This document shows, one piece after another, positions 3-23,598 of a DNA stretch of 25,925 bases (its first letter is position 1; each line of letters begins with the position of its first letter). Under the pieces are notes generated by a model. It was given only the letters and a program-made list of their open reading frames with translations. It searched no databases and was not told the origin of the DNA. Both the position numbers and the translations under genes were made by a program. This DNA comes from a virus, in the IMG/VR virus record IMGVR_UViG_3300050192_000021, positions 1 to 25,925 of that record; one strand, written 5' to 3'.

Positions 3-725
3 TTCGCGTCCGAGCATTCCATGATGACTTTGTACGGTCGCGGCGGGGAAGCCCGAGTCGTGGGTGATATCCTGGCGAAGCACCCGACGGGCGTCATCTC
101 AATCGTAGGCGACTCCTATGACATCTACAACTTCTGCGAGAACATCATCGGCGGCGAGTTCCGAGAGCAGATTCGCAAACGGAACGGCAAGGTAGTCGTC
201 CGTCCCGACTCCGGCGACCCGCAGGTAGTCATCCCGAAGTGCTCCGACATCCTTTCCGAGAAGTTCGGATTCAGCGAGACCAGCAAGGGTTACAAGAAAC
301 TCGCTCCATGCGTCGGGCTGATTCAGGGCGATGGCATGGACTATTACAGCATCAAGGACATGTTCCAGGTCGCCGCAAACAATCACTACAGCGCGGAGAA
401 CTATGTGGTCGGCATGGGCGGCGGACTTCTCCGTAAGGTTAATCGGGACACCCAGAAGGTAGCCATGAAGTTGTGCAACGCCATCATCGACGGCAAGTCC
501 ACACCGGTCTCCAAGAACCCCATCACGGACCCAGGCAAGAAGTCCAAGAGCGGACGCCAAGCCTTGTTGTTCAACAAGATCAACCGCAGCTTCAACACCG
601 TGCAGGACATCCACGGCACGGGCATCGCGGGCGATATGCTGGAACCCGTGTTCCGCAACGGCGAGATGCTGCGAGTCCAGACCTTGGACGAAATCCGCAA
701 GTTGGCGGAAGTGGAGCTTCCATAA
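3..725 (+). CDS. Nicotinamide phosphoribosyltransferase (NAMPT), C-terminal part, 5' end outside window
   Basis: The frame is open from base 3, so the gene enters from the left. NAMPT joins nicotinamide and PRPP to make NMN, the first step of NAD salvage, in the cytoplasm. The visible 240 residues align by eye with the C-terminal half of human NAMPT. They include the EHS motif whose His (codon 15-17) corresponds to the phosphorylated catalytic H247, GDSYDIYN, the PRPP/phosphate motif RPDSGDP (Arg codon 201-203), IQGDGMD, GMGGGLL and a KSKSGR segment. The end (DEIRKLAEVELP) matches the normal family C-terminus, so the protein is not truncated here. The stop is immediately followed by the ATG of the next gene, so the two are probably co-transcribed. 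Phage NAMPT is known from NAD-reconstitution pathways that counter NAD-depleting defences; a partner NMN adenylyltransferase would have to lie outside this window. Identification is firm; the role is inferred. Confidence 0.95.
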   Translation, partial: FASEHSMMTLYGRGGEARVVGDILAKHPTGVISIVGDSYDIYNFCENIIGGEFREQIRKRNGKVVVRPDSGDPQVVIPKCSDILSEKFGFSETSKGYKKLAPCVGLIQGDGMDYYSIKDMFQVAANNHYSAENYVVGMGGGLLRKVNRDTQKVAMKLCNAIIDGKSTPVSKNPITDPGKKSKSGRQALLFNKINRSFNTVQDIHGTGIAGDMLEPVFRNGEMLRVQTLDEIRKLAEVELP

Positions 726-1401: not shown

Positions 1402-1431
1402 TTGACATGCGGAGATAAAGGGTGCTACACT
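1402..1431 (+). promoter_or_regulatory. Sigma70-like promoter for the PEP-CTERM gene
   Basis: A perfect -35 box TTGACA (1402-1407) is followed after 18 bases by TACACT (1426-1431). A TG one base before the -10 box (TGCTACACT) makes it an extended -10 type. Transcription would start near 1438, giving a leader of about 36 bases that contains AGGAGG (1458-1463) 10 bases before the ATG at 1474. It is the best match to a host vegetative promoter that I saw in the window, and it serves a single gene closed by its own terminator. Confidence 0.75.
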
Positions 1432-1473
1432 TTACGAGTACAAGGAATTCAAATCTCAGGAGGAAATACCGAT

Positions 1474-2124
1474 ATGCTTAAGAAATTGGCAGTACTGTTA
1501 CTCGCGAGCAGCTTCATGCTGATGGCAGCGAAGGCCGACACCATCGTAGCAAGTTCGGCTACCAATACCACGAACAACTCTGGTTCCGCTACTCTGAACA
1601 TTGCACCGAATCTGCAATGGGCTCCCGCTATCCCCGGTCCGAACGTCCTGGACAGCTCGCACTGGATTTCCTACGCTATCACCGGAAACCCGGTGCAGGA
1701 CAACTTTGTCGTTGTTCCCAACGGCACGGATGTGATCTTCACGCAGACGTTCAACCTTGGCGCACCCGTGGAAGGCGGCTATTTGGACGTGTTAGCCGAC
1801 GACACTTCGTCCGTCATTCTGAACGGCACCACTATTTTCGCCGCGAACCTCAATGGCTCTTATCCTACCTGCTCAAACCAGCCCATCGGCTGCTTGACCA
1901 GTACGGAAGCCGTTATTGACCTCTCCCAGTTCGCCGGTCTTTTCACCACCGGCGTCAACACGCTGTCTTTCCAAGTGTATCAGGAGAACGGTTCTTCGTA
2001 CGGCTTGGATTACTACGGAGACATCAATACTCCTGAGCCTGGGACGCTTGCGATGCTTGGTATCGGCTTGGTTGGCCTGTTCCTGATGGGTCGCCGGGAA
2101 GTTGCCGGGTCCTTCGCCAGCTAG
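1474..2124 (+). CDS. Secreted PEP-CTERM domain protein (216 aa), phage cargo gene
   Basis: The ATG at 1474 follows a full AGGAGG site. Residues 1-21 form a signal peptide (KK, hydrophobic core, AKA before D22). The middle is a Thr/Asn/Gly-rich predicted beta-sandwich containing LDVLADDTSSVILNGT, typical of PEP-CTERM surface proteins, plus one close Cys pair (CSNQPIGC). The C-terminus carries the sorting signal: P187-E188-P189, a hydrophobic span of about 191-205 and the positive stop R207-R208. In bacteria such tails are cut by exosortase in systems tied to exopolysaccharide or biofilm export. The protein is therefore expected to be exported and sorted by host machinery. It has its own promoter and terminator, unlike its neighbours, which is the classic layout of a moron gene. 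A role in altering the host surface or blocking other phages is inference only. Confidence 0.9.
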   Translation: MLKKLAVLLLASSFMLMAAKADTIVASSATNTTNNSGSATLNIAPNLQWAPAIPGPNVLDSSHWISYAITGNPVQDNFVVVPNGTDVIFTQTFNLGAPVEGGYLDVLADDTSSVILNGTTIFAANLNGSYPTCSNQPIGCLTSTEAVIDLSQFAGLFTTGVNTLSFQVYQENGSSYGLDYYGDINTPEPGTLAMLGIGLVGLFLMGRREVAGSFAS

Positions 2125-2149
2125 TGTTTCCTCGCAGTTCCGCGTTTCA

Positions 2150-2195
2150 AAAGGGAAGCTGACTCGCCAGAGTTGGCTTCCCTTTTTCTTTGTCA
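2150..2195 (+). terminator. Strong rho-independent terminator
   Basis: Bases 2150-2165 pair with 2170-2185 to form a 16-bp stem: an outer AAAGGGAAGC/GCTTCCCTTT and an inner segment with two G-U pairs, closed by the tetraloop GCCA. A T-rich tract (TTTTTCTTTG) follows on the 3' side. It lies 25 bases after the PEP-CTERM stop and would isolate that gene from the genes downstream. Confidence 0.92.
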
Positions 2196-2237: not shown

Positions 2238-3035
2238 ATGGAAAAATGGCCCCCAGCAACATACGATCAGTTTTGGCAGCGGGTTTGCGAAGCGATATTC
2301 ATCAAGAATCCTGACTGGTCGTCTATCGTCAAGCAACTGCCCGATAAGCTTGACATTAAGACTATCCTCCGCCGCACCATAGACACCGATGTGATTCAAA
2401 GCGTCCGGGCACGTGCACAGGGGTGGATTGGCAAGGACATTGTCGTCCAAAACAACATCAATCCCTACCGCGAAGGCGACTTCTATATGACGCCGCTTCG
2501 GTGGGCATACCTCCAAGTCTTCGGTCAATTCCAGCTCCTAGAAGGCTTCGTCAACTTGCTTTCTATCAACGGCGAAATGATCAACCCCAAGAATTGGCAG
2601 CCGGACTTAGCCGACCAATTGATTGAATTCGCTCAAGCCGTCACGTATTTCTCGGCCTACCTGCTTCTTTGCGACGAAGGCCGTCTCCCGGAGCCCATGA
2701 CGAGCAGCGCATGGCGCATATGCAAGCTTGACGATCCCCTCCTCGTGGAACCCATTCGGGATGAGGTCCGCAAAATCACCGAAACTCTTTCAAGCAAAAC
2801 ACGGGATTACGGGCAGGCGTTTTTGCGCCATGGTATACTTGGTCTCATTCACCGCCTATGGGACAAGATCGCCCGGTATGCGACGTTGTCCGCCGAGAAC
2901 CGGCCATCCAAGTTTGAATCGAAGCGGGACACGGTCACCGACATGCTCGGCTATTCCGTGCTCATTTGGTCGATACTGGAAGACATCAAGGCGCACTCGC
3001 CCGTGGTCATATCGACAGGAGAATTGATCCAATGA
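2238..3035 (+). CDS. Protein with C-terminal DUF1599/Nmad1-like all-alpha domain (265 aa)
   Basis: The C-terminal part (about residues 195-250) has the pattern of the DUF1599 nucleotide-modification-associated domain: a helix with RLWDKIARY, a spacer with FESKRDTVTDMLGYSVL, and a final helix. In that family the FES..DT..D..GY motif belongs to an all-alpha NTP pyrophosphatase fold. The N-terminal 190 residues are helical and rich in Trp and Phe (PDWSSIVKQLP, GDFYMTPLRWAYLQVFGQFQ) and are not recognised. It overlaps the following MazG-like gene by 4 bases (ATGA), so the two are probably made together. Nucleotide-pool control is the likely theme. No good ribosome-binding site precedes the ATG; a TATTAT at 2227-2232 would place a transcript start almost at the ATG. 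The fold assignment is by motif only. Confidence 0.7.
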   Translation: MEKWPPATYDQFWQRVCEAIFIKNPDWSSIVKQLPDKLDIKTILRRTIDTDVIQSVRARAQGWIGKDIVVQNNINPYREGDFYMTPLRWAYLQVFGQFQLLEGFVNLLSINGEMINPKNWQPDLADQLIEFAQAVTYFSAYLLLCDEGRLPEPMTSSAWRICKLDDPLLVEPIRDEVRKITETLSSKTRDYGQAFLRHGILGLIHRLWDKIARYATLSAENRPSKFESKRDTVTDMLGYSVLIWSILEDIKAHSPVVISTGELIQ

Positions 3036-3943: not shown

Positions 3944-4795
3944 ATGGTGCTTTTAACTAAGGGCAAGCCGCTTGGACAGGGTGATCTTTCGATACTGGTT
4001 CGCGATGCCCAGGGCCATTGCGTCGATCCCTTCGCTATCAGTTATTCGATCTTCTTCGTCAAGGACTGCCAAGAATCACTGGTTACGCCCCCCCAATCTA
4101 TACCAAAGAGAAGTTCGCAGGGCGGATACTTCGTCCCGTTGACAATCCCCACGGCGTGGAGCGAGGGCACTTACAAACTGGTGTGGACCCTGGTGCAATA
4201 CCCGGAGAGCAGTGCTCAGGAGGTTTTCGAGGATTTCCGCATATTGAACGTGGAACCGGCTACCTCCGATTTCGAGGCCCCGTCGGCACTCATCACCCGC
4301 AAGCAGGTCGTGGACAAGTACACCGCTGCCATCATCATGATGGTTCGGGAGCTTCTGATGGACACGAACCCCGACCGCAACTACCATTTCCGCCCCCCGA
4401 CGCCGGGGAAGGTCGTGGCCGGATACACCACGAGAGTCGGCTATATCTGGGAAGACAGCACCGTCATCCGCATGGTCAAGAACAACATCTCCCGTGCGAA
4501 CACATGGAACCCCCGCACGTACTATGGCTTCACGCTGGAAACGCTCCCCGACGATTGGGCGAATTTCGTAGCGCTCGGTGCCGCATCATCGTGCCTGAGC
4601 AACGAATCCGCACGCTGGGCCGCCGATGAGTTCTCCTACAGCCTGAACGGCGTCAGCATCGACTTGCCGAAGACGCAACTCTACCAGTCGCTCGCGGCGG
4701 CGTATCGCGGCGAGTGGGACGAATGGGCACCACGCATCACCGCCATCCGCCCCACGAGCTGCGGACTTCGCCAGCAGCGCTGGATACTTGGCTAG
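3944..4795 (+). CDS. Virion structural protein, neck/connector candidate (283 aa)
   Basis: The ATG follows GGGGAGA by about 8 bases. Two parts are visible. Residues 1 to about 105 look like an all-beta domain (GQGDLSILVRDAQGHCVDP, GGYFVPLTIPTAWSEGTYKLVWTL, VFEDFRILNVE), similar in pattern to macroglobulin or Ig-like modules. The C-terminal part contains ARWAADEFSYSLNGVSIDL followed by a helix (SLAAAYRGEWDEW) and an I-K/R-P-type ending, a pattern I know from neck and connector proteins of large phages. It stands before other structural genes, so a virion role is likely. I cannot assign it to a specific position in the particle. No signal peptide or membrane segment. Confidence 0.65.
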   Translation: MVLLTKGKPLGQGDLSILVRDAQGHCVDPFAISYSIFFVKDCQESLVTPPQSIPKRSSQGGYFVPLTIPTAWSEGTYKLVWTLVQYPESSAQEVFEDFRILNVEPATSDFEAPSALITRKQVVDKYTAAIIMMVRELLMDTNPDRNYHFRPPTPGKVVAGYTTRVGYIWEDSTVIRMVKNNISRANTWNPRTYYGFTLETLPDDWANFVALGAASSCLSNESARWAADEFSYSLNGVSIDLPKTQLYQSLAAAYRGEWDEWAPRITAIRPTSCGLRQQRWILG

Positions 4796-10572: not shown

Positions 10573-13500
10573 ATGGCGTTATTCCAACAGTACACACAGC
10601 CGGGCGTCTACACTGAGGTCATCATCGCCGCCTCAGGAGCACCCCTATTTGGCACGACCCGCATTCCCGTCGTCATCGGTGAAGGTACCGCATTTTTCAC
10701 GTTCGCCAACCAAGAGTTGGTGCGCGGATCATCCGCCGTAGCAAACAACTTGGTCGTGAACGAAGACCTCTCCGACCAGGTGAACGGCATCACGAACACA
10801 TTCCAGACCACGTATTTCCCGATCGTTTCGAGCCAAGGCGTCGGCAAGACCACGAACGATCCGTCCCAAATTGTAGTCATTTCGGATGGAATCCCACTGA
10901 CTGTCATCTCTTTGAACGGTGCCACGGGCACGTTCCAGATGCAGGAAATCATCCCGGTAGGCAGCACGCTGGTCGTGTCCTATCAGTTCAAGCTCAACGA
11001 TACGCTTGTCGCGAACGAGAACCTCGGTGCGCAAATCCCAGCGTTTGGTACTGACATTCTTTCATCTACCACATCGGAAGCCATTCAAGAATCACATGTG
11101 ATCTCGTCCAGCCCTCCGGGGCCGGTGACGGTCGCAAACGCATCGACATTTACGGGCAACGTCGCCGTTCAATACGCTAGCGGAGCCTTCCTGACGCAAG
11201 TCGTTTCCGCCCCGACGCTAGGTCAATACGCCGTGACCGCAGGTGTGTATACCTTCAGCACAGCCGACGAAGGTGCTACCGTCCTCATCAGCTATTCTTT
11301 CACGAACGCCTCTACCGCGCAATCATTGACGGTCAGCCTGACCATCCCCGGCTTCCAGGGCAACAATGTCACGCTCGCCCTCACATTGACACCGGGCAGC
11401 GGCAAGTCTGATGCATTATCGATCTCCGGCGCTGGCACCGATGCAATCAGCCTCGAATTGCTCAAGGCCGACAACATCACCGTTCGTACATTAGCGAACG
11501 TCAACACGCTCATCTCGGCTGGCATTCCGACCGCACTCGGCTATCTGACCGGCATATTGACCGGTTCCGGTGTTAACCAAGCGTTGGCGCAGACCGCCAC
11601 GGCATTCACGGGCGGAAAAGGCCCGAACACGAACACGGTTTTCCAGACGCACTTTGCGCCCATCGTCGACGGAACCAATGGCGGCGTCGTCACGACCAAC
11701 CCAGCAAGCGTCGTCGTCCTTGTCAACGGCGTCGCGGTTACGGTTTCCGTGGTCGACGGTCAGTCAGGCCAAGTTACATTGGCCAACCCGGTCTCTTCCG
11801 GGTCCACGATGACCATCACCTACTACACGAACCACTATCAGCACACCGACGATTTGCTCCCCGCAGAGCAGGTTGCATCTATCGTCCAAGTAGGTCTCGG
11901 TCCGAACCGCGCCGACTACATCCAAGGCATCGACTATGTGTTGACCCAAGACGGCACCATGATTGCATGGGGTGCCAATACCGACATTGCGGCGGGCACG
12001 TCGAATTCAAACAGCGTCGCGCAATTCGGCCCGATACAGATCACTTCGACGCTCGTCGACGAACATATCTATCTGAGTCCTTGCACCGGCTCCGTGAACG
12101 GCATCAACGCAAATTTTACACTAGCCAATGTTCCCGTAGATGGAAGCGGGCTCGCCCGCTCTACGGACAACCCGTCCCTCATCTGGGTCTATGTAGGTCC
12201 AAGCCCCATCGCGGCTCTTGCCGCCGGAGCCGTAGTAGTCGCAGCATTAGACGGGGCAGCCGCACAGATCACTCTCTTCAACCCGCCGACATCGGGCAAC
12301 AACGTGTATGCATCGTACTACCGCTCCACATTGAACGACCACACCTACACGCTCACGGTTCAGACCCCCGGCATTCCTGGACAGGGAACCTACAGTGCGA
12401 CGAACGAACTCAACCAGATCGTCCCTGTTCCGACAATCGGCACGAACCATGTGGCCGACGGAAACTTCAATACGACCGGCATCATCTGGCCGTACAACTT
12501 CCCTGACTTTGAAATCCCGGCGAATTCCAAGACTGAAGCGATCACGCTCACGTTCCAAGATGACGACCTGCACTTCATCGTCACGCCTGCCGTGGGTGCA
12601 ACCGTCGCCGTAGCTATCGGGGCAACGGCAACCTTCACGGCTACCGAAGTTGGCTCGCTTGAACCGGATTGGTCGGCACCAAACGGTACTTCGAGCGTCA
12701 CGGTCGTCAACAACGCCGCCGAGCCCGTTCTTGTCGCGAATCAGGTCTACGCCAGCACCGGAACAATCTACAACGGCACCACGACAGCATTCCCGATATG
12801 GACTGCTAACACACTTTACAGCCTTGGCCAGATCATCTATGATTCCGGCACGGCAAGCATCCAGGTCGTCACGACCGCAGGTACTTCAAACGCAACGCGC
12901 ACGGCTTCATTCAGCGCAACGGCTGGAGTGACGGCACGAGAAGGCGGTTCCCCATCTAGCTCGCTGATTTGGACCTCCAACGGTCTCGCACCGGCGACGG
13001 CAGAACAGATTGTCGTCAACATCTGGTCCACCACGGGTGGTCAGAGCACGGTCAACGCCCTCGTGGCGCTTTTCTCAGGCTCCAACAAGGTCACGACCCC
13101 GAAGGCTGGCGTCGTCACCGCAGCAGTCACATCCGGTACGGGCACGTCGCTCGCTACCCCTATCGCCATCAGCTACTTCGAAGGCGGAGTCAACCCGACC
13201 ACAATCGATTATTCCGACCGCTTCCTCGTCACATCCACCATCGCAGGCGGCAAGGGAACGGGAGAGGCAACGACACCGGCGACGCCGAACGTCGATGCTT
13301 CGGGTCCTTGGTCCGCAGCTACGGTCTTCGCGGAAGGCCAGATCATCAGCTTCGTATACTCCGGGACCAGCTACCTCGCACAGGCTGGTCAATATGGCGA
13401 GTCCGGCGCTTCCACTCCATTCGTGGCGGGCAGCATCGTCACGGGCGCGACCACGACTGACCACGAAATTACATGGACGACATTAGGTCCCGTGCTCGCC

Positions 13501-14943
13501 CCGGTAGGAACAAACGGTTACCTTGGCCAAAGCTACGTAGACACCAATACGGGCGTCAAGTTCACCATTGTGGACCCAAACAACGCTCTTCCGTACGGTT
13601 GGACGACACTGCCTTCTCCGTCGTACCACTACCGTCCAGGCGACACGCTCCAGCTCATCGTCAACGCCAACCCAGTCGGTTCGTCTCTGAACCAAGCTTT
13701 GTTCACGACCGGTGCAATTCCGACAATCGAATTCTTGGGAACGCACACCAATGTCGTCACGACCTATGGCATGACCACGGGCGACACGGCTACCGTCATG
13801 ACCTTCAACGGCAACGACGGCAATGAACCGAATGTGGGTGAGTACTACTACATCACATTCACGATCAACAAGACCCCTCAGGACATGGCTCTCGTCCTCT
13901 ACACCGACCCGACATTGGCCTATGCCGCATACGGCACGCCGAACACCATCAACCGTGCATCTCTTGCCGTGCAACTCATGACGGCGAACGGCGCTCAGCA
14001 ATTCGGTGTGGTACAGGTTCCAGTGCAGCCGAACTTGAACACGGGAAGCGACTCATCTTACGAGTCCGCTATCCAGTCGCTCGCGGCTCCGCTTCCGGGA
14101 ACTCAGAACCACGTCAACGTCATCGTCCCGCTGTCCACGTCGGCACCTGTTCAGCAATTCTTGAGCCGCTTCCTTATCACGCAGGCAGCCCCTCGCCAAA
14201 AGGCCGAGGCAATCGCTTTCATCGGCACGAACATCTATGCCACACCGGCATCGGTTTCCGCGCTCGCACAGTCACTCGCTAATTCCCGCGTCATCCTGGT
14301 CGTTCCAGGCGCTCTACCGGGCGGCTATGGCATCCAGATCACGAACACGCAGACGGGCGTCGCACAAGAATATTGCGTGGACGGCACCTTCGCAGCCGCA
14401 GCTATGGCAGGCTTGAACGTCAACCCGGCTAACGACGTGGCGACGACCTTGACCTTCCAGGACATAGTCGGCTTCACGCGCCTTCTCGGCACACGTCTTG
14501 ATGACCCGACCATGGATGGCATCGCATCCAATGGTGCGACGGTCGTCATCGAAAACAACGGCGGTTTGCTGGTGCGCGATTACTTGAGCACCGATCCGAG
14601 CAACATTCTCACATCAATCCCGACGGTCACGACCACGACGGACTACGTCGCACAGTACTTCCGTGCGCAACTCGCGCAGTTCATCGGTCGTAAGCTCATC
14701 GGGTCAGTTCTCGGTTCGATCCAGATCGTTTGCAACAGTTTGCTCTCGAACTTGGTGAACGCATTGATCCTCCAGGGTTATGCGGCACCGGTCGTCAAGC
14801 AGGACGCGAGCGACCCAACGACGGTGGATATCGCCGTAGCATTCCAGCCTGTGTTCTCGATTCGTTACATCGGCGTGACATTCACGGTGACATCGTCCTC
14901 AGTCTCGTCTACGACGACGACTTCGACGCCAACAGCAACGTAA
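10573..14943 (+). CDS. Giant contractile tail sheath protein (1456 aa)
   Basis: The N-terminus (QYTQPGVYTEVIIAASGAP) is a classic sheath start. The last 400 residues have the sheath core: a Rossmann-like NSRVILVVPGALPGG segment, AAAMAGLN, RLLGTRLDDPTMDGIASNGATVV, NGGLLVRDYLSTD, and the C-terminal helix with YFRAQLAQFIGRKLIG that joins neighbouring subunits. The usual length is about 400-700 residues; here some 900 residues lie between the two ends. The extra part holds three related beta modules (about 58-156, 347-435 and 497-595), each with an NTxFQTxFxPIV- or NANFTLANVPV-like start, a V-x-V-x-x-NG- or VYVGP-like middle and a final YY or SY strand. It also holds two or three W-x-A-x-T-x-Y/F-x-x-G stretches (from 743 and 913) like carbohydrate-binding type modules. 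The Ser/Thr-rich end is disordered. The sheath contracts to drive the tube through the envelope. Confidence 0.88.
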   Translation: MALFQQYTQPGVYTEVIIAASGAPLFGTTRIPVVIGEGTAFFTFANQELVRGSSAVANNLVVNEDLSDQVNGITNTFQTTYFPIVSSQGVGKTTNDPSQIVVISDGIPLTVISLNGATGTFQMQEIIPVGSTLVVSYQFKLNDTLVANENLGAQIPAFGTDILSSTTSEAIQESHVISSSPPGPVTVANASTFTGNVAVQYASGAFLTQVVSAPTLGQYAVTAGVYTFSTADEGATVLISYSFTNASTAQSLTVSLTIPGFQGNNVTLALTLTPGSGKSDALSISGAGTDAISLELLKADNITVRTLANVNTLISAGIPTALGYLTGILTGSGVNQALAQTATAFTGGKGPNTNTVFQTHFAPIVDGTNGGVVTTNPASVVVLVNGVAVTVSVVDGQSGQVTLANPVSSGSTMTITYYTNHYQHTDDLLPAEQVASIVQVGLGPNRADYIQGIDYVLTQDGTMIAWGANTDIAAGTSNSNSVAQFGPIQITSTLVDEHIYLSPCTGSVNGINANFTLANVPVDGSGLARSTDNPSLIWVYVGPSPIAALAAGAVVVAALDGAAAQITLFNPPTSGNNVYASYYRSTLNDHTYTLTVQTPGIPGQGTYSATNELNQIVPVPTIGTNHVADGNFNTTGIIWPYNFPDFEIPANSKTEAITLTFQDDDLHFIVTPAVGATVAVAIGATATFTATEVGSLEPDWSAPNGTSSVTVVNNAAEPVLVANQVYASTGTIYNGTTTAFPIWTANTLYSLGQIIYDSGTASIQVVTTAGTSNATRTASFSATAGVTAREGGSPSSSLIWTSNGLAPATAEQIVVNIWSTTGGQSTVNALVALFSGSNKVTTPKAGVVTAAVTSGTGTSLATPIAISYFEGGVNPTTIDYSDRFLVTSTIAGGKGTGEATTPATPNVDASGPWSAATVFAEGQIISFVYSGTSYLAQAGQYGESGASTPFVAGSIVTGATTTDHEITWTTLGPVLAPVGTNGYLGQSYVDTNTGVKFTIVDPNNALPYGWTTLPSPSYHYRPGDTLQLIVNANPVGSSLNQALFTTGAIPTIEFLGTHTNVVTTYGMTTGDTATVMTFNGNDGNEPNVGEYYYITFTINKTPQDMALVLYTDPTLAYAAYGTPNTINRASLAVQLMTANGAQQFGVVQVPVQPNLNTGSDSSYESAIQSLAAPLPGTQNHVNVIVPLSTSAPVQQFLSRFLITQAAPRQKAEAIAFIGTNIYATPASVSALAQSLANSRVILVVPGALPGGYGIQITNTQTGVAQEYCVDGTFAAAAMAGLNVNPANDVATTLTFQDIVGFTRLLGTRLDDPTMDGIASNGATVVIENNGGLLVRDYLSTDPSNILTSIPTVTTTTDYVAQYFRAQLAQFIGRKLIGSVLGSIQIVCNSLLSNLVNALILQGYAAPVVKQDASDPTTVDIAVAFQPVFSIRYIGVTFTVTSSSVSSTTTTSTPTAT

Positions 14944-16604: not shown

Positions 16605-17294
16605 ATGGCAGGTATCAGTCAATACGGCGGATATGTTTACCGCCAAGGAACATCGGGTCAGACCGAAACGGTTATCTCTAGCCGTTTCAAGATTTACACC
16701 CCGGCTGTGGACGTTGGCAAGTTCATCAAGCTCGGCGTGACCTCGTCGTTCTCCGTCTCGGAAACGAAGGCAGTTGACGCCGTTCGCGGTCTCGGATACG
16801 GCGACCAAGTGGCAGAACTCGTGCCCGGCGTGACCGCCCCGACCTCGTTGGCTATCGCCCGTACATGTCTCTACCTTGCCAACCTCATGCAGATGTTGGG
16901 CTACAAGGCTGGAGTCAGCGGTGCCGTCCGTTCCCTCAAGCACCACAAGTGGCCCTTTGATATCAAGACTGAAATCGTCTTCAGCGAGTTGGCTTCAACC
17001 GACCCTAACGTCGGGGAAGCAACCCTCGCGGATGTCCCGAACGAAGGTGGTTTGAACAACACCGGCAACCCAGGATTGTTCGCCGTAGCGACAGTCTACG
17101 AAGGCTGCTGGATGACATCGTACAACACGGCTTATCAGGTTGAGACCGCCGCCGTTGCCGAAGACACCAATGTGCAAGTCACTGACATCTTTGACGTGAG
17201 CGGTTCCGTGTACGGCGAATTCATCGACAGCGGTAACGCACCTGACGACACGACTGGAGCGTCACTCCTCTATAACGGCCTGACGACGGTATAA
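16605..17294 (+). CDS. Tail tube protein (229 aa)
   Basis: AGGGAG lies 8 bases before the ATG. The protein has the length and character of myovirus tail tube subunits. The segment VGKFIKLGVTSSFSVSETKAVDAVRGLGYGDQVAELVPG (about residues 35-74) matches the tube pattern of a loop, a beta strand, RGIG.GD, then AE..PG.T. A helix follows (SLAIARTCLYLANLMQMLGY), then WPFDIKTEIVF and late beta strands ending in VTDIFDVSGSVYGEF. Tube monomers stack as rings inside the sheath and form the channel for DNA and any injected proteins. The order sheath then tube is usual for contractile phages. A specific family is not certain from motifs alone. Confidence 0.75.
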   Translation: MAGISQYGGYVYRQGTSGQTETVISSRFKIYTPAVDVGKFIKLGVTSSFSVSETKAVDAVRGLGYGDQVAELVPGVTAPTSLAIARTCLYLANLMQMLGYKAGVSGAVRSLKHHKWPFDIKTEIVFSELASTDPNVGEATLADVPNEGGLNNTGNPGLFAVATVYEGCWMTSYNTAYQVETAAVAEDTNVQVTDIFDVSGSVYGEFIDSGNAPDDTTGASLLYNGLTTV

Positions 17295-17531: not shown

Positions 17532-17580
17532 CTCCAAGAACCTTGGTTCTAGACTTTCCACCTCTTTCTTGAGGCTCCTC

Positions 17581-20500
17581 GTGTCTAAACTCTTCAAAAA
17601 GGCGGCGTTACGCCCTGATATAATCGTCACTTACGCCTACGAATTTGCCAAAGAGTACGACCGTGAGTACGGCTCCGCCGGTTTCGCCAAGTCATTCTAC
17701 CCCGAAAATCAACTGACGCGCATCCTCATCGACAAGGCGCTGAACACCATCCCGAACTGTTCCAAGGGCGACGCCTACGAAATCGCCATTTCCGCTGAAA
17801 AAATCCTGGAAACTATGGGGATCAACCCCGTCGCCGCGAAGACCGGCTCAGTCATTGAACCGGGACTTCTGTACCAATCCCCCGGAGATTCCGGCGAAAA
17901 ATACCACGACTACAATCCCAATTGGGATTACGAGATAGATGAAACCCCGGACCCCACGATGGCTGCGACCGTAAAGTCCATCTGCGGGCGCATCTTCGCG
18001 AAGACCAACGTGCCGTTCCAAGTCTGGGCGGCGAAGCTTGGCAATGACGTAGGGACTTACATCAACGGCACCACGGGATACCCGGTCATCCTCATAGACT
18101 TGGAGAATCACCGTGGGTCCGAAGACCAGTTCGGAAAAACCATTTCCCACGAGTTGAAGCACCATGAGCAGGAGGATGCCGGTCGCGATTTCGACGAGGA
18201 CGAAGCGGAAAACGAATCCGAACACGAGGCATCCAAAACCGGTGCCAAGTCAGGATTTCGCGATTGGATGGGTAAGACCCCAACGACAGGGATGGGCAAT
18301 TCCCGAGACCTGACCGTGACGAAGTTCCAGAACAAGGAGGGCGTGCAACCCGAACCGTTCATGGACAAGTACACAATCGTGAAGGGATTCAGCAAGCACA
18401 ACCGTGGGTTCCAAGGAACCGGTGATGAAGTCAAGAGCGGATTCTATACGGTGTTCGACGGCGACAAGCCCATAGCCTCGATGTGCCAAGGGTCCCTCGT
18501 GGTGGACAAGAAGTATCGTCGCCAGGGCATCGGCATCGAACTGGCGAAGACCTTCATGCACGACTACCCGGATTACCGTCCATCTTCGGTGACCCCCAAG
18601 AGCAAGAAGCTGTTTGAAAAGGCGTGGGATGGCAAGACCGGTGCGATCAAGACCGCCTCAAAAAATAAGGCATTCTTGCTGACCGATGGGTTCTTCGTTG
18701 GCGGCGATGAGCATGAGCGCTTGGTTGAGAGAATGGGCCTGGTAGGCGGCGCTATCGATGATGAAGAATACGAGACCGCCTGTTCCGATGCCGTGAACAA
18801 TCTCGTCGAAAGAGGGGCCATCCGCCTGTGCGATGTCGAAACCTCCCGCCCCGTCGCTGCTCAGTTGGTCAAGCCGCCTTCCGATGCGCAGCGACGTGCC
18901 TTGGGGAAGCTGATCAAGGAACAGGGCGGCATCGTTTACGACATTCGCAAGGGCGATTATGGCGGTGCCATGACCGACGGGGAAGCTCGAACCGCCGGGG
19001 AATTCTGGCGTGTCGTGAACCAAGTGTTCGGCATCAAGACCGCCGACGCCCACAGCGACTACGCCAAGACCTTCCCGGATGATGAAGCATTCCTCAAACA
19101 TCACTACACGGGATTCATCCCGAGCCGCGCCTACGAGAACAAGGACTGGACGATGTGGAAGAAGGAGGATTTTCCCGTCCTCTTCAAGACTTTCACGTTG
19201 AAGAACGGGAAGCAGGTCGAACTCCGCAAGACCGGTCGTCCTAACAAGTACGTGAAGACGGACGAAAACCAGGATATCATCCGCGACCCCGCAACGGGAC
19301 TCGCCACTTACCTTTCCTCGGAAGAGATGAAAGCGCAGAACCTCCATGAGTTCGACACCGCGATCTTTGCCTTCGACATGGCGGGAAACTGCGTCGGGCA
19401 GGCGAATGACGAATGGGGAGCGGACGGGGTCTGGGTCGCCCCGCAAATACAGCGCCAAGGTCTCGGCGTGGAACTTCTCACCGAGCTTAAAAAGCAATAT
19501 AAACCCGAACGCCAGATGGGCCAGATGACGAATGAAGGCATCGGGCTGGCTAAGAAATACTATCAGAAGCTTAAGTCTTCTGCCGTTGCGTCCCCATTCA
19601 AGCAATCACTGCTTCAGCTTCGTCCGCAGATGGCTGCCGCTGCCCAAAAGGTCTATGACGAGTGGGTACCCAACGACGAAGGCGAGGATGATACATTCGG
19701 AGGCGGGGGAATCTGCGACCAAATCTCCGAGGCTATTCAGGGCGTCATCGTTTCCAACATGGAAGCGGACATCGCCGAAGGCGGGCAGGACGGCGACGAC
19801 CACGCTTGGACAATCGCATACTCCCAAACGGAAACCTATAGCGTGGACATCCATCCCTACGTGTATGAGCGCGGAGGCGGCTATTCATGGACGAAGGTTC
19901 CCGGCGTGCGTTTCGATGCCGACGACGTTGAGATATTCCCCGTGGATGTAAGCGCCGAAGACCTCAACAAGTATTCATCCTGCATCGAATGCAATCAGAA
20001 GATCAGCAAGAAGGCGAGCGCCGACGGGACGGTGCTTTCATGCGGCTGCGGGAAGAACGAGTTCAAGACCGCCGATCTGACATATAACACCCCCAGACAA
20101 CCGCTGGATTTCGATACCTTGTACGGCAAGGCGTTCAAAATCGTGGATAATGCGGGAGACCACAACATCGAAGGTTTCAGCATCGTTACACCGGAAAACG
20201 GCGATGCCTGGAATTGGCGTGAGCGCCCAGAATTCAAGTCTTTAGTAAAACAAAAACTCAATGATCCCGATTTCTTGGCCGATCACAAATACAATCAAAT
20301 CCTCAACTGTGCAAAGACCGCATGCTCCGCCGCCCAGGACGAGGCCGATATCAAGCAGATGAAAATGGATGCCGCCGCAACTGAAACGGGGACGCCAGAA
20401 CAGAAAGCCCGCGAACAGTTCGGTGTGTACCCGGCGGGAGAAGATGCACCCAACCCCCTCTTCATCTGGACAGACGGCATGGTCACGTCGGGCACGGACT

Positions 20501-23500
20501 ACCACGAGCAAATCGCCTGCTACGTCTATGACGAGGACCCCAAGGCAGTCGGGGTCTCTATGGTCGATAAATTCCTGCGCGAAACGGGTGCCGTCCGCAT
20601 CTCCGCCAATTTAACCGATGATTTCAACGTGCAGATTATGAAGTCCCCGACCAGACGGCAGATTCGCTCCATCGCCATCCTCAGCAAGGGCATGACGCTC
20701 TTTTGGGACATAGGGGATCAGATACCCGTTGGTGGGCGCATCGATATGAAGGGCGTGACCTCGGGTCGCGGAACATTCGGCGAATTCCAGCGCACCGTGG
20801 ATAAGAAGTTCGGCAAGATTGCCAGCCGCAAGGTCGCCCTGGACGCCGTGCTGGAGGAACTCAACAAGCCCATATCGGCGGAGGACCCGCAGCGCGACAT
20901 CGGCGGACAGGGCACCGGGGAGGAATCCCCAGCCAACTCAATGGCTACCGAGATTGACGAACCGGACAAGCAGTACAACCACCCGTTCGGTCTAGGCATG
21001 GGTACGGAACCGGAAAGTGCCCGCTACGCTAGCATACTGCGCAAGGAGATAGCCGCCATAGAGAAGCGTGCGTCCCTGTGGACGGCGGCGGATGTCGAGC
21101 AGTTGCAGGCGCTCCGCATGGAGCTTCATCTCTTTGCGAAGACAGCCGCCGAGATGCCAAAATACCTGTTTCACGGAACCAAGGGCGACAACGTGCCTAG
21201 CATCCTGAAGGGTGGTCTGAGAGCGAACTGTTATCTCTCCACAGAGCCTGTCGCCGCTTGGTACGCGGCGTGGGATGGAAACAAAAACAATGCCGTCGTA
21301 ATCCGTATACCCATCTCCAACTTAGATACCAGCGACCTTGTGAAGGTAAAGCGCCTGATGCCGGGAAGTTTGGCGCAAGTAGGGGACACCCGCATCTGGC
21401 AGTATGCCCAGCCGATACCCGTTTCCGAGGACGACGTATTCCCCCTGCGGGTCATCAAGACCGCCGAGCGCGGCCAGTTGAAGTTCCACGACCAGCCGGA
21501 CAAGCTGCCGCCCCGCGACGACATGAAGTCGCACATCGACAAGACGCAGCTCGATCCCCAACTGAAGAAGGACAAGAAGGAACGGAAGAATCCCGCCACG
21601 GTGCCCACCCCGGTTCCGCTGCCTCCGCAAGCCAAGATAGAAGGCACTCCGCCGACATCGGCCGCTCCTCTCAAGCAGGACCTCGCGTACCGCTCGCGGT
21701 TCGCCGCAAGCGATTCTGAAATTACGATCTATCGCGGGGAGGGGGGGACTTCCAAAAAAAGCGGTCCCTACTGGTCTCCCGACAAGGATTTCGCAAGACA
21801 ATTCACGCATTCAGGACTGGAAAGCGAACTGAAGAAAAACACGATTCAAGCGAGTGATGTCTACACCCCGAACCAGCCGGTGTATGGGGGCGATCCCGAC
21901 GCAATCGATTTCGCCGTCGCGGAAGCTCGCGGCAAGGGTTTCAAGGCCGTAAGACTGAGTGAAGGGCAGGGAGAACCAGATTCGATTTATGTGTTTGAAA
22001 GATCGGCCCTGAGAAACCGCTCACGGTTCGGCGCTCCGAAAAATGCAGCCGCCACGTTCGAGGGCAATGCGTGGATCACCCCGGAAGGGGGAATCTTCGG
22101 CGAAGGCGACGAGCACGGTGCCGCATTGGACCCGTCCTTGGACCCTGAAGACGAAGACCAGGCGGGGATGGAAGCCCGCCGTGCGAAGGCCATCCGCGAA
22201 GCCTTTGACAAGGGATGGGTCCGCGCAAACAATATCGTCGGCAACGAACTGAACGTCGAAATGGCCCATCCCATGACCGAGCAGCAGCGAGCCGTGCTCG
22301 CCGCGACCGGCAGAGGGAAGGTGGTCTACTACGACTTCCGTGGCCATCCCGAGGCTTTCGGACTCGTCCACGGACGCGGTCCATCATCGTTCGGCCAACT
22401 CCTGCGGGACCACGACGCTTTCTTCAAGTTGAGCGGTAAGACCGCCGCATCCGATCCCGACCAATACTGGGAGGAGCTAGTCAATGACCAAGAAGACAAA
22501 GCAAAAACGGAGTTCATGTCGCACCCAGACATCAAGCAAATCGCACTCGATAACGGCTGGACGATGGAAGAAGCTTGGGAAAACGTGGGTCGAGACTTCA
22601 CCAGCGAATTCCATAACCCCGCCAATCGATTCTTCGCGTCGGTGAAAAAAAAAGCCCACCAGCGTAACATCGGACGGATGTACCACGGCAGCAAGAGTGT
22701 GATCCCCGACAGCATGCTGCGCCGCTTCAATGGAAGCGGTGGACAGGACTCCGGGGCCATCTTCGTCACGCCGTCCATCGCTTATGCGCAAGCCTACCAA
22801 GGTACAAGCGGAGCACTCTACGCCGTGGAGATGGGCGCGAAGGACATCTTCGATCCGGAAAACGAACAGGACATGGAGCGTCTCTCGGACGGCTACGGCA
22901 ACTTGGTGGGGAGCGAATACGATTCCGAGGAAGCCGCGATGTCGGACTACCGGAACGCGGTCGGCGGCGAATATGGCGACCTGCTCGATTGGGCCGTTGG
23001 CGGTCAGATCATGGACGCGGTGGAGGCGGCTGGCTTCGACGGCATGCGCATGCGCGAGCGTCCAGGCAACATCTCCATCGGTCAGGGAGGCGGCTTCGAC
23101 ATCTCCGGCGAACCAATCGAAAGCGTGGCGCTGTTCAAGGGTCCGGTCAAGGCGACGCGCATCGACACTCCGGAAAAGCTAGCGGCGGTTAAGCCGAAAA
23201 TCAGAAAAAAAGTCAACAACGACGCAGACTGGCTGCTGAAAAACGGCGGTTGGATTTCAAGCACCGGGCAATCCATACCCCTGGATGCCAAAGAAGATGA
23301 TCATGGTGCCTTGGCGTTGACCGCAGGATTGGCGGAAATCACCTCCGAAGAGGACATGACGGACGAGCGCTGGAGCTACGCGGAGATGAACGCCCTTCGA
23401 AACGGGCACATCCGCGTCAAGCCAGAAGACGATCACATCTATTTAGAAATGTCGGGTATGAACAAGCGGAATACGCTGGCGGGGTTCTTACGCGGCGTCG

Positions 23501-23598
23501 GACGCCTGCCCTATGAAACATGCACTATCGATTGGCAAAGCGACAGCAAGAGTTTTGATTCAGCTGAAGAAGCAGCCGATTGGCTGGAAAGTCTTTAA
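17581..23598 (+). CDS. Polyvalent multidomain protein: zincin-like, GNAT x2, ART-like x3, repeated module x4 (2005 aa)
   Basis: I chose the GTG at 17581, 6 bases after GAGG; a TTG at 17569 is the alternative. Domains by residue: zincin-like motif H190-E-L-K-H194; GNAT 1 (about 250-345, RRQGIG at 313-318); repeat A (364-480); GNAT 2 (about 530-665, QRQGLG at 624-629); GGGGICD segment (C712, H741, D756; possible papain-like triad); zinc ribbon (C801, C804, C821, C823); repeat B (about 955-1080); ART-like 1 (FHGT, H1198, YLSTEP 1218-1223); Lys/Pro linker; ART-like 2 (YRGE 1384-1387, YWSPDKDFA from 1397); repeat C (1490-1618); ART-like 3 (YHGS 1701-1704, GAIFVTPS 1725-1732); repeat D (1886-2005). 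It fits the polyvalent proteins described for phages and conjugative elements, thought to enter the cell with the DNA and modify host targets. K-T-A occurs at most module borders. It lies between the tube and the candidate protease genes. Confidence 0.85.
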   Translation: MSKLFKKAALRPDIIVTYAYEFAKEYDREYGSAGFAKSFYPENQLTRILIDKALNTIPNCSKGDAYEIAISAEKILETMGINPVAAKTGSVIEPGLLYQSPGDSGEKYHDYNPNWDYEIDETPDPTMAATVKSICGRIFAKTNVPFQVWAAKLGNDVGTYINGTTGYPVILIDLENHRGSEDQFGKTISHELKHHEQEDAGRDFDEDEAENESEHEASKTGAKSGFRDWMGKTPTTGMGNSRDLTVTKFQNKEGVQPEPFMDKYTIVKGFSKHNRGFQGTGDEVKSGFYTVFDGDKPIASMCQGSLVVDKKYRRQGIGIELAKTFMHDYPDYRPSSVTPKSKKLFEKAWDGKTGAIKTASKNKAFLLTDGFFVGGDEHERLVERMGLVGGAIDDEEYETACSDAVNNLVERGAIRLCDVETSRPVAAQLVKPPSDAQRRALGKLIKEQGGIVYDIRKGDYGGAMTDGEARTAGEFWRVVNQVFGIKTADAHSDYAKTFPDDEAFLKHHYTGFIPSRAYENKDWTMWKKEDFPVLFKTFTLKNGKQVELRKTGRPNKYVKTDENQDIIRDPATGLATYLSSEEMKAQNLHEFDTAIFAFDMAGNCVGQANDEWGADGVWVAPQIQRQGLGVELLTELKKQYKPERQMGQMTNEGIGLAKKYYQKLKSSAVASPFKQSLLQLRPQMAAAAQKVYDEWVPNDEGEDDTFGGGGICDQISEAIQGVIVSNMEADIAEGGQDGDDHAWTIAYSQTETYSVDIHPYVYERGGGYSWTKVPGVRFDADDVEIFPVDVSAEDLNKYSSCIECNQKISKKASADGTVLSCGCGKNEFKTADLTYNTPRQPLDFDTLYGKAFKIVDNAGDHNIEGFSIVTPENGDAWNWRERPEFKSLVKQKLNDPDFLADHKYNQILNCAKTACSAAQDEADIKQMKMDAAATETGTPEQKAREQFGVYPAGEDAPNPLFIWTDGMVTSGTDYHEQIACYVYDEDPKAVGVSMVDKFLRETGAVRISANLTDDFNVQIMKSPTRRQIRSIAILSKGMTLFWDIGDQIPVGGRIDMKGVTSGRGTFGEFQRTVDKKFGKIASRKVALDAVLEELNKPISAEDPQRDIGGQGTGEESPANSMATEIDEPDKQYNHPFGLGMGTEPESARYASILRKEIAAIEKRASLWTAADVEQLQALRMELHLFAKTAAEMPKYLFHGTKGDNVPSILKGGLRANCYLSTEPVAAWYAAWDGNKNNAVVIRIPISNLDTSDLVKVKRLMPGSLAQVGDTRIWQYAQPIPVSEDDVFPLRVIKTAERGQLKFHDQPDKLPPRDDMKSHIDKTQLDPQLKKDKKERKNPATVPTPVPLPPQAKIEGTPPTSAAPLKQDLAYRSRFAASDSEITIYRGEGGTSKKSGPYWSPDKDFARQFTHSGLESELKKNTIQASDVYTPNQPVYGGDPDAIDFAVAEARGKGFKAVRLSEGQGEPDSIYVFERSALRNRSRFGAPKNAAATFEGNAWITPEGGIFGEGDEHGAALDPSLDPEDEDQAGMEARRAKAIREAFDKGWVRANNIVGNELNVEMAHPMTEQQRAVLAATGRGKVVYYDFRGHPEAFGLVHGRGPSSFGQLLRDHDAFFKLSGKTAASDPDQYWEELVNDQEDKAKTEFMSHPDIKQIALDNGWTMEEAWENVGRDFTSEFHNPANRFFASVKKKAHQRNIGRMYHGSKSVIPDSMLRRFNGSGGQDSGAIFVTPSIAYAQAYQGTSGALYAVEMGAKDIFDPENEQDMERLSDGYGNLVGSEYDSEEAAMSDYRNAVGGEYGDLLDWAVGGQIMDAVEAAGFDGMRMRERPGNISIGQGGGFDISGEPIESVALFKGPVKATRIDTPEKLAAVKPKIRKKVNNDADWLLKNGGWISSTGQSIPLDAKEDDHGALALTAGLAEITSEEDMTDERWSYAEMNALRNGHIRVKPEDDHIYLEMSGMNKRNTLAGFLRGVGRLPYETCTIDWQSDSKSFDSAEEAADWLESL

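Follow-up and report, generated by a model that had tools for sequence, protein, structure and literature searches.

The question raised by this locus is why a large phage should carry, as a unit with signals of its own, a gene for a PEP-CTERM protein, that is, a substrate of exosortase. The gene lies near one end of a stretch of viral DNA (hereafter the window: the whole stretch of 25,925 nucleotides that was analysed, positions 1 to 25,925 of the IMG/VR record IMGVR_UViG_3300050192_000021). Phage genes that alter host surfaces are a known kind; we know of no described gene of this kind that uses the exosortase sorting pathway. The answer we favour, and hold to be reasonably probable, is that the gene is an accessory, moron-type gene of a large contractile-tailed Acidobacteriota phage, and that its product, P0001, is a host-derived or host-related substrate of the host exosortase which would remodel the surface or matrix of the infected cell.

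The window covers part of the genome of a large virus with a contractile tail. This virus is related to Tunturi_5, a cultured jumbo phage of Tunturiibacter (Acidobacteriota) with a complete genome of 309 kb. Three phage genes of the window serve as landmarks:

3..725, + strand: nicotinamide phosphoribosyltransferase (NAMPT), flanking phage gene with its 5' end cut (phrog_448, E 4e-71)
2238..3035, + strand: DUF1599-like gene (nucleotide-modification associated), flanking phage gene (PF07659, E 2e-4, under the cut-off)
10573..14943, + strand: tail sheath of a contractile-tailed phage (phrog_2839, E 4e-21)

About ten window genes match Tunturi_5 at 38-68% identity. They include NAMPT and the sheath, the C-terminal part of which is 48% identical to the Tunturi_5 sheath. 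The matched genes at 3944, 6259 and 8427 are annotated in Tunturi_5 as head-tail connector, minor tail protein and tail terminator, respectively, and those at 16605 and 23628 as virion structural protein and head maturation protease. The DUF1599-like gene has 21 related loci in IMG/VR. The sheath protein (1456 aa) has a long N-terminal extension, and the sheath family is matched by approximately its last quarter only. Also in the virion region, positions 17569-23598 hold a very large, multi-domain ORF of 2009 aa that includes a GNAT acetyltransferase domain as well as segments that look repeated. The PEP-CTERM unit is located between a block formed by NAMPT and small genes and the DUF1599-like gene. 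An earlier, sequence-only reading of the window had placed it in a phage virion region, which is only roughly right: phage genes surround the unit, but the virion genes start at 3944.

That reading had also named a bacterial origin of the DNA at this point as the weak spot of its proposal. The contig is metagenomic and P0001 has bacterial homologues, so that bacterial DNA misassembled onto a phage contig, or a bacterial region misnamed viral, deserves consideration as an artefact. Against this stand the phage genes on both sides of the unit, the PEP-CTERM genes of a complete cultured phage of the same clade and, above all, a second contig of 51.7 kb (IMGVR_UViG_3300047539_000045, hereafter L002). 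The unit recurs in L002 with both junctions unchanged and as a diverged allele that differs by about 9% within the gene, which makes a misassembly very unlikely. Contamination is thereby ruled out as an explanation to be pursued, and we consider an artefact of either kind scarcely credible. Most flanking genes differ by less than 1% between the window and L002. A block at 1401-2990, spanning the PEP-CTERM gene and the greater part of the DUF1599 gene, diverges by about 6-10%, a pattern that suggests allele exchange.

The unit itself consists of the following elements:

1402..1431, + strand: sigma-70-type promoter-like site, TTGACA (1402-1407)-18-TGC-TACACT (1426-1431), extended -10, 10/12 match
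1458..1463, + strand: ribosome-binding site AGGAGG, 10 nt 5' of the ATG (1474)
1474..2124, + strand: gene of the PEP-CTERM protein P0001, 216 aa (TIGR02595 and PF07589 above cut-off; Acidobacteriota homologues)
1474..1536, + strand: signal peptide, residues 1-21, predicted cleavage between AKA and D (A19 and A21 invariant in alignment A1)
1537..2025, + strand: mature domain with invariant ADDT, NG and two cysteines (C133, C140) in alignment A1
2029..2121, + strand: PEP-CTERM sorting tail TPEPGTLAMLGIGLVGLFLMGRRE and short C-terminal extension (HMM matches)
2149..2186, + strand: intrinsic terminator with 17-bp stem, 4-nt loop and T-run (-27.6 kcal/mol, z = -5.3)

The PEP-CTERM ORF is thus preceded by the window's best sigma-70-like promoter and followed by a hairpin terminator. 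Across both strands of the window, the site at 1402-1431 is the sole match of at least 10/12 with an extended TG; by chance, about 0.06 such sites would be expected per 25.9-kb strand and 0.0003 in the 108-bp gap. Promoter, ribosome-binding site and terminator stem are identical in L002. The promoter and AGGAGG that had been proposed are present, as is the terminator, the stem of which is 17 bp long rather than the 16 bp noted earlier. The description as a complete isolated unit holds as far as sequence signals go, since these are self-contained on both sides of the ORF; a promoter and a terminator of its own are one hallmark of a moron. The unit is most likely transcribed by the host RNA polymerase, separately from the adjacent phage genes. 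The further suggestion of expression in a latent or pseudolysogenic state found no evidence; a host-type promoter is equally compatible with early transcription in a lytic infection.

The protein has the architecture that the sequence-only reading had assigned to it. By inspection, its N-terminus MLKKLAVLLLASSFMLMAAKA, followed by D, is a normal signal peptide made up of MLKK, a hydrophobic run and AKA, and the A-x-A residues are invariant in the alignment. The C-terminal end reads TPEPGTLAMLGIGLVGLFLMGRREVAGSFAS, a hydrophobic helix followed by Arg-Arg. A failure of this end to score with any PEP-CTERM model would have spoken against a sorting tail; it reaches 20.5-24.4 bits with TIGR02595 (curated cut-off 16) and 27.2 with PF07589 (cut-off 20.7). 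P0001 was rejected as a member of the named subfamilies PepA, THxN and FxDxF, every score being below cut-off; with the PepA equivalog NF033554, a floc-forming PEP-CTERM protein, it scores 21.1 bits against a cut-off of 80. The mature domain is probably a beta-sandwich and may be a carbohydrate-binding one. An AlphaFold model made from the single sequence, without an alignment, was uninformative (pLDDT 41). The only match to a solved structure was the rhamnosidase 3w5m, with a non-significant profile E of 0.73. As a lead within this non-significant match, the invariant ADD of the P0001 family aligns with an ADN of the 3w5m chain. The matched region is one that we take to be CBM67, a rhamnose-binding module; at this E-value, P0001 has no significant match to any solved CBM67 domain.

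The nearness of the unit to virion genes and a mature domain that may bind carbohydrate (the non-significant rhamnosidase-domain match) could be taken to mean that P0001 is an adhesin on the particle, helping it to bind exopolysaccharide. From what is understood of tailed-phage biology, the particle is assembled in the cytoplasm, and signal peptide and sorting tail direct P0001 out of it; a role in the virion is therefore very improbable.

The sorting tail also led to the likely host. Among 84,980 genomes, the tail pattern TPEPGTLAMLGxGL has a single occurrence, in a metagenome-assembled genome of the Bryobacterales (Acidobacteriota). A comparison of the tail variant with host genomes, which had been proposed as a route to the host, thus gave a single match that led to relatives in the same phylum. 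In a homologue survey of 396 Acidobacteriota genomes centred on this genome, relatives of P0001 were found in 14, ten of them with E < 1e-19. Phage and host sequences share ADDT, NG, the two cysteines and the tail (alignment A1). The host copies are single-gene units, mostly with AGGAGG (present in L160, L162, L165, L167 and L168) and a 3' hairpin. In the two genomes inspected (G071 and G116), an exosortase is encoded 30-32 kb away from the relative. In both, the genes flanking the relative encode a nucleotide-sugar dehydrogenase and a TviC-like epimerase; in G071 there is also an adjoining glycosyltransferase, the best match of which is a PEP-CTERM/XrtA-system family. In these two genomes the relatives look like chromosomal proteins of an exopolysaccharide locus. 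The idea that the host homologues are themselves prophage genes found no support, the neighbours being exopolysaccharide and metabolic genes.

The relationship to Tunturi_5, together with the P0001 homologues found by the search within Acidobacteriota, makes a host from this phylum likely. This agrees with the expected host group, one with exosortase and exopolysaccharide genes. A phage-encoded exosortase was considered and rejected, as none was detected in any of the eight phage records examined; the host must therefore supply the enzyme. Of 61 genomes from the presumed host class, 25 have an exosortase, and this share of less than half counts against the preferred explanation. It fits better with a host that has no exosortase, in which the tail, being a hydrophobic helix followed by Arg-Arg, would be a mere C-terminal anchor of a periplasmic membrane protein, for instance an inner-membrane superinfection-exclusion protein. 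Conservation of the PEP motif itself, with scores above the cut-offs, argues for a sorting tail, as does the position of relatives in exopolysaccharide loci some 30 kb away from an exosortase; a simple anchor appears distinctly unlikely.

The comparison with L002 bears on whether the phage has any use for the protein. Between the two alleles, the PEP-CTERM gene has a dS of 0.257 and a dN of 0.052 (dN/dS ~0.2). In the tail-containing part at 1951-2121, 11 synonymous changes stand against one nonsynonymous change (dN/dS 0.026, i.e., ~0.03). These substitutions indicate purifying selection on the protein, most strongly on its tail. The GC content and codon usage of the gene match the phage and give no sign of recent capture. 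In L002, indels break the frame near the gene end, and the DUF1599 gene of this contig is likewise frame-broken. Assembly of mixed strains is the likely cause, although the L002 copy may be a real pseudogene in that strain. These indels weigh against the preferred explanation, as does an out-of-frame PEP-CTERM gene in a 231-kb relative (L010, IMGVR_UViG_3300029911_000001, also seen in two other contigs).

L010 has two PEP-CTERM genes. The one at 1561-2108 lies between a NadM-Nudix gene and an endonuclease gene, near the NAD-salvage/DUF1599 region, and is unrelated in sequence to P0001. Its signal-peptide part and PEP tail are in different frames, identically in three contigs, which may reflect a pseudogene, frameshifting or an assembly error.

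Tunturi_5 (PP885688.1) encodes two PEP-CTERM proteins above cut-off, gp97 and gp179, both annotated as hypothetical; the terms "PEP-CTERM" and "exosortase" do not occur in the main text of the paper on the Tunturi phages (PMC11924767). Gene gp179 is bracketed by terminator-like hairpins, and relatives of its product occur in 18 of 297 Acidobacteriota genomes. The product (L154 4379-5017) has an NGYCLDLA segment that is reminiscent of thioester-type surface domains. For gp97 and a protein of another contig (L029), the BLASTP alignment is confined to the tail region, and homology is therefore not claimed.

Elsewhere in the clade the trait is patchy. PF07589 is absent from 17 of the 21 DUF1599-sharing records, and a PEP-CTERM gene from all 47 further clade contigs, thirteen of which exceed 75 kb; in both sets, many records are fragments. 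Presence in some relatives and absence from others is the second hallmark of a moron. Since the trait is present in Tunturi_5 and the 231-kb relative and absent from the 47 contigs, it is accessory cargo, probably acquired more than once.

This distribution, the host-like structure of the unit and the broken copies in relatives would all suit a captured passenger, a host PEP-CTERM gene taken up with its own promoter and terminator and expressed without benefit to the phage. Two points speak against this reading, which we regard as unlikely: the two phage alleles show purifying selection on the protein, strongest on the tail, and related phages repeatedly carry unrelated PEP-CTERM proteins.

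Farther afield, a pattern scan of IMG/VR for PEP-CTERM tails returned at least 119 stretches; those that could be read lie at the C-terminal end of an ORF. Among the matches listed, 89 stretches were examined, and at least 29 of them have a portal, terminase or tail homologue as well. One FGQTSGT-type family of about 213 aa accounts for 56 of the clustered PEP-CTERM proteins among the matches listed; its genes (L044, L048, L061, L033, L049 and others) lie near portal and terminase genes in soil podovirus-like contigs. It is possibly a widespread phage PEP-CTERM family. Close relatives of P0001 were absent both from cultured phage records searched by tblastn and from genome contigs searched with short peptide patterns, a method blind to the distant homologues found otherwise. 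Queries consisting of a consensus PEP-CTERM tail, or of PEP-CTERM sequences from IMG/VR phages, gave nothing among cultured phages; such short queries are insensitive enough to miss Tunturi_5. A phage-borne gene for an exosortase substrate is borne out by a tail above the cut-offs on a phage contig. The label "unusual" for such cargo stands only in part: PEP-CTERM phage contigs are numerous in IMG/VR, but almost no literature on them was found.

For the timing of expression, processing, destination and benefit of P0001, we infer the following course under the preferred explanation, an accessory phage gene for a host-exosortase substrate. P0001 would derive from, or be kin to, a PEP-CTERM protein of a host exopolysaccharide/exosortase locus. 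The host RNA polymerase would start from the sigma-70 promoter of the unit and transcribe it separately from the phage genes on either side; the product would be exported by Sec, and the host exosortase would recognise and process its tail. The mature domain would then be released into, or attached to, the outer surface or exopolysaccharide of the host. There, P0001 would most likely compete with or add to a host matrix or surface component, as the host homologue belongs to an exopolysaccharide locus, and by competing with or supplementing host PEP-CTERM proteins it would alter the infected cell's surface. The most probable benefit would be less adsorption of further phages, or an altered matrix or clumping. 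Of the two roles first suggested, superinfection exclusion is plausible and biofilm modification a candidate.

More tentatively, phages might repeatedly and independently exploit the host exosortase/PEP-CTERM route, placing diverse tagged proteins on the infected-cell surface or exopolysaccharide and so controlling adsorption, superinfection or biofilm. This would amount to a widespread, as yet unrecognised class of phage surface-remodelling genes. In the literature searched, phage use of the exosortase route was absent beyond passing mention, and it appears to be undescribed. To our knowledge, most PEP-CTERM proteins still lack an assigned function, and one that is kept under selection by a phage offers a handle on what these proteins do. 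The cultured pair of Tunturi_5 and Tunturiibacter makes the question accessible in the laboratory.

Compared with known systems, P0001 resembles the substrates of the PEP-CTERM/exosortase (EpsH) system (TIGR02595, PF07589; PMC1569441) in its signal peptide, PEP motif, hydrophobic stretch and basic end, and in the likely host lineage, as in EpsH-type systems, exosortase is found near exopolysaccharide genes. Unlike those substrates, it is encoded on a phage without a detected exosortase and needs the host enzyme in trans. The chromosomal Acidobacteriota homologues (L159-L168, L173-L175) are 30-42% identical to P0001 (alignment A1) and share with it ADDT, NG, the two cysteines, the PEP tail and the single-gene unit, mostly with a 3' hairpin. 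The phage copy differs in its shorter N-terminal region, its promoter and its tail, which reads TPEPGTLAML in the phage and VPEPSSLLLLGTGL in these homologues. The Tunturi_5 proteins gp97 and gp179 are PEP-CTERM proteins as well, from a cultured jumbo phage of Acidobacteriota that is related to the present one, and gp179 has hairpins and host homologues too, but their mature domains are unrelated to that of P0001 and their genome positions are different. The FGQTSGT type (e.g., L044, L048) shares the placement of PEP-CTERM genes within a few kb of portal or terminase genes, but it is another protein family, with a VPEPASLALLGVGLLGLG-type tail and on podovirus-like contigs. Within the literature searched, the nearest precedent is a list of transferred genes in hot-spring viral contigs (PMC11003980), which includes TIGR03118-family proteins (n = 13), with an exosortase-interaction C-terminus, among the cellular genes in viruses; the passage in question treats them as horizontal transfers of unknown function, without the analysis of sorting, promoter and host that is given here for the present unit.
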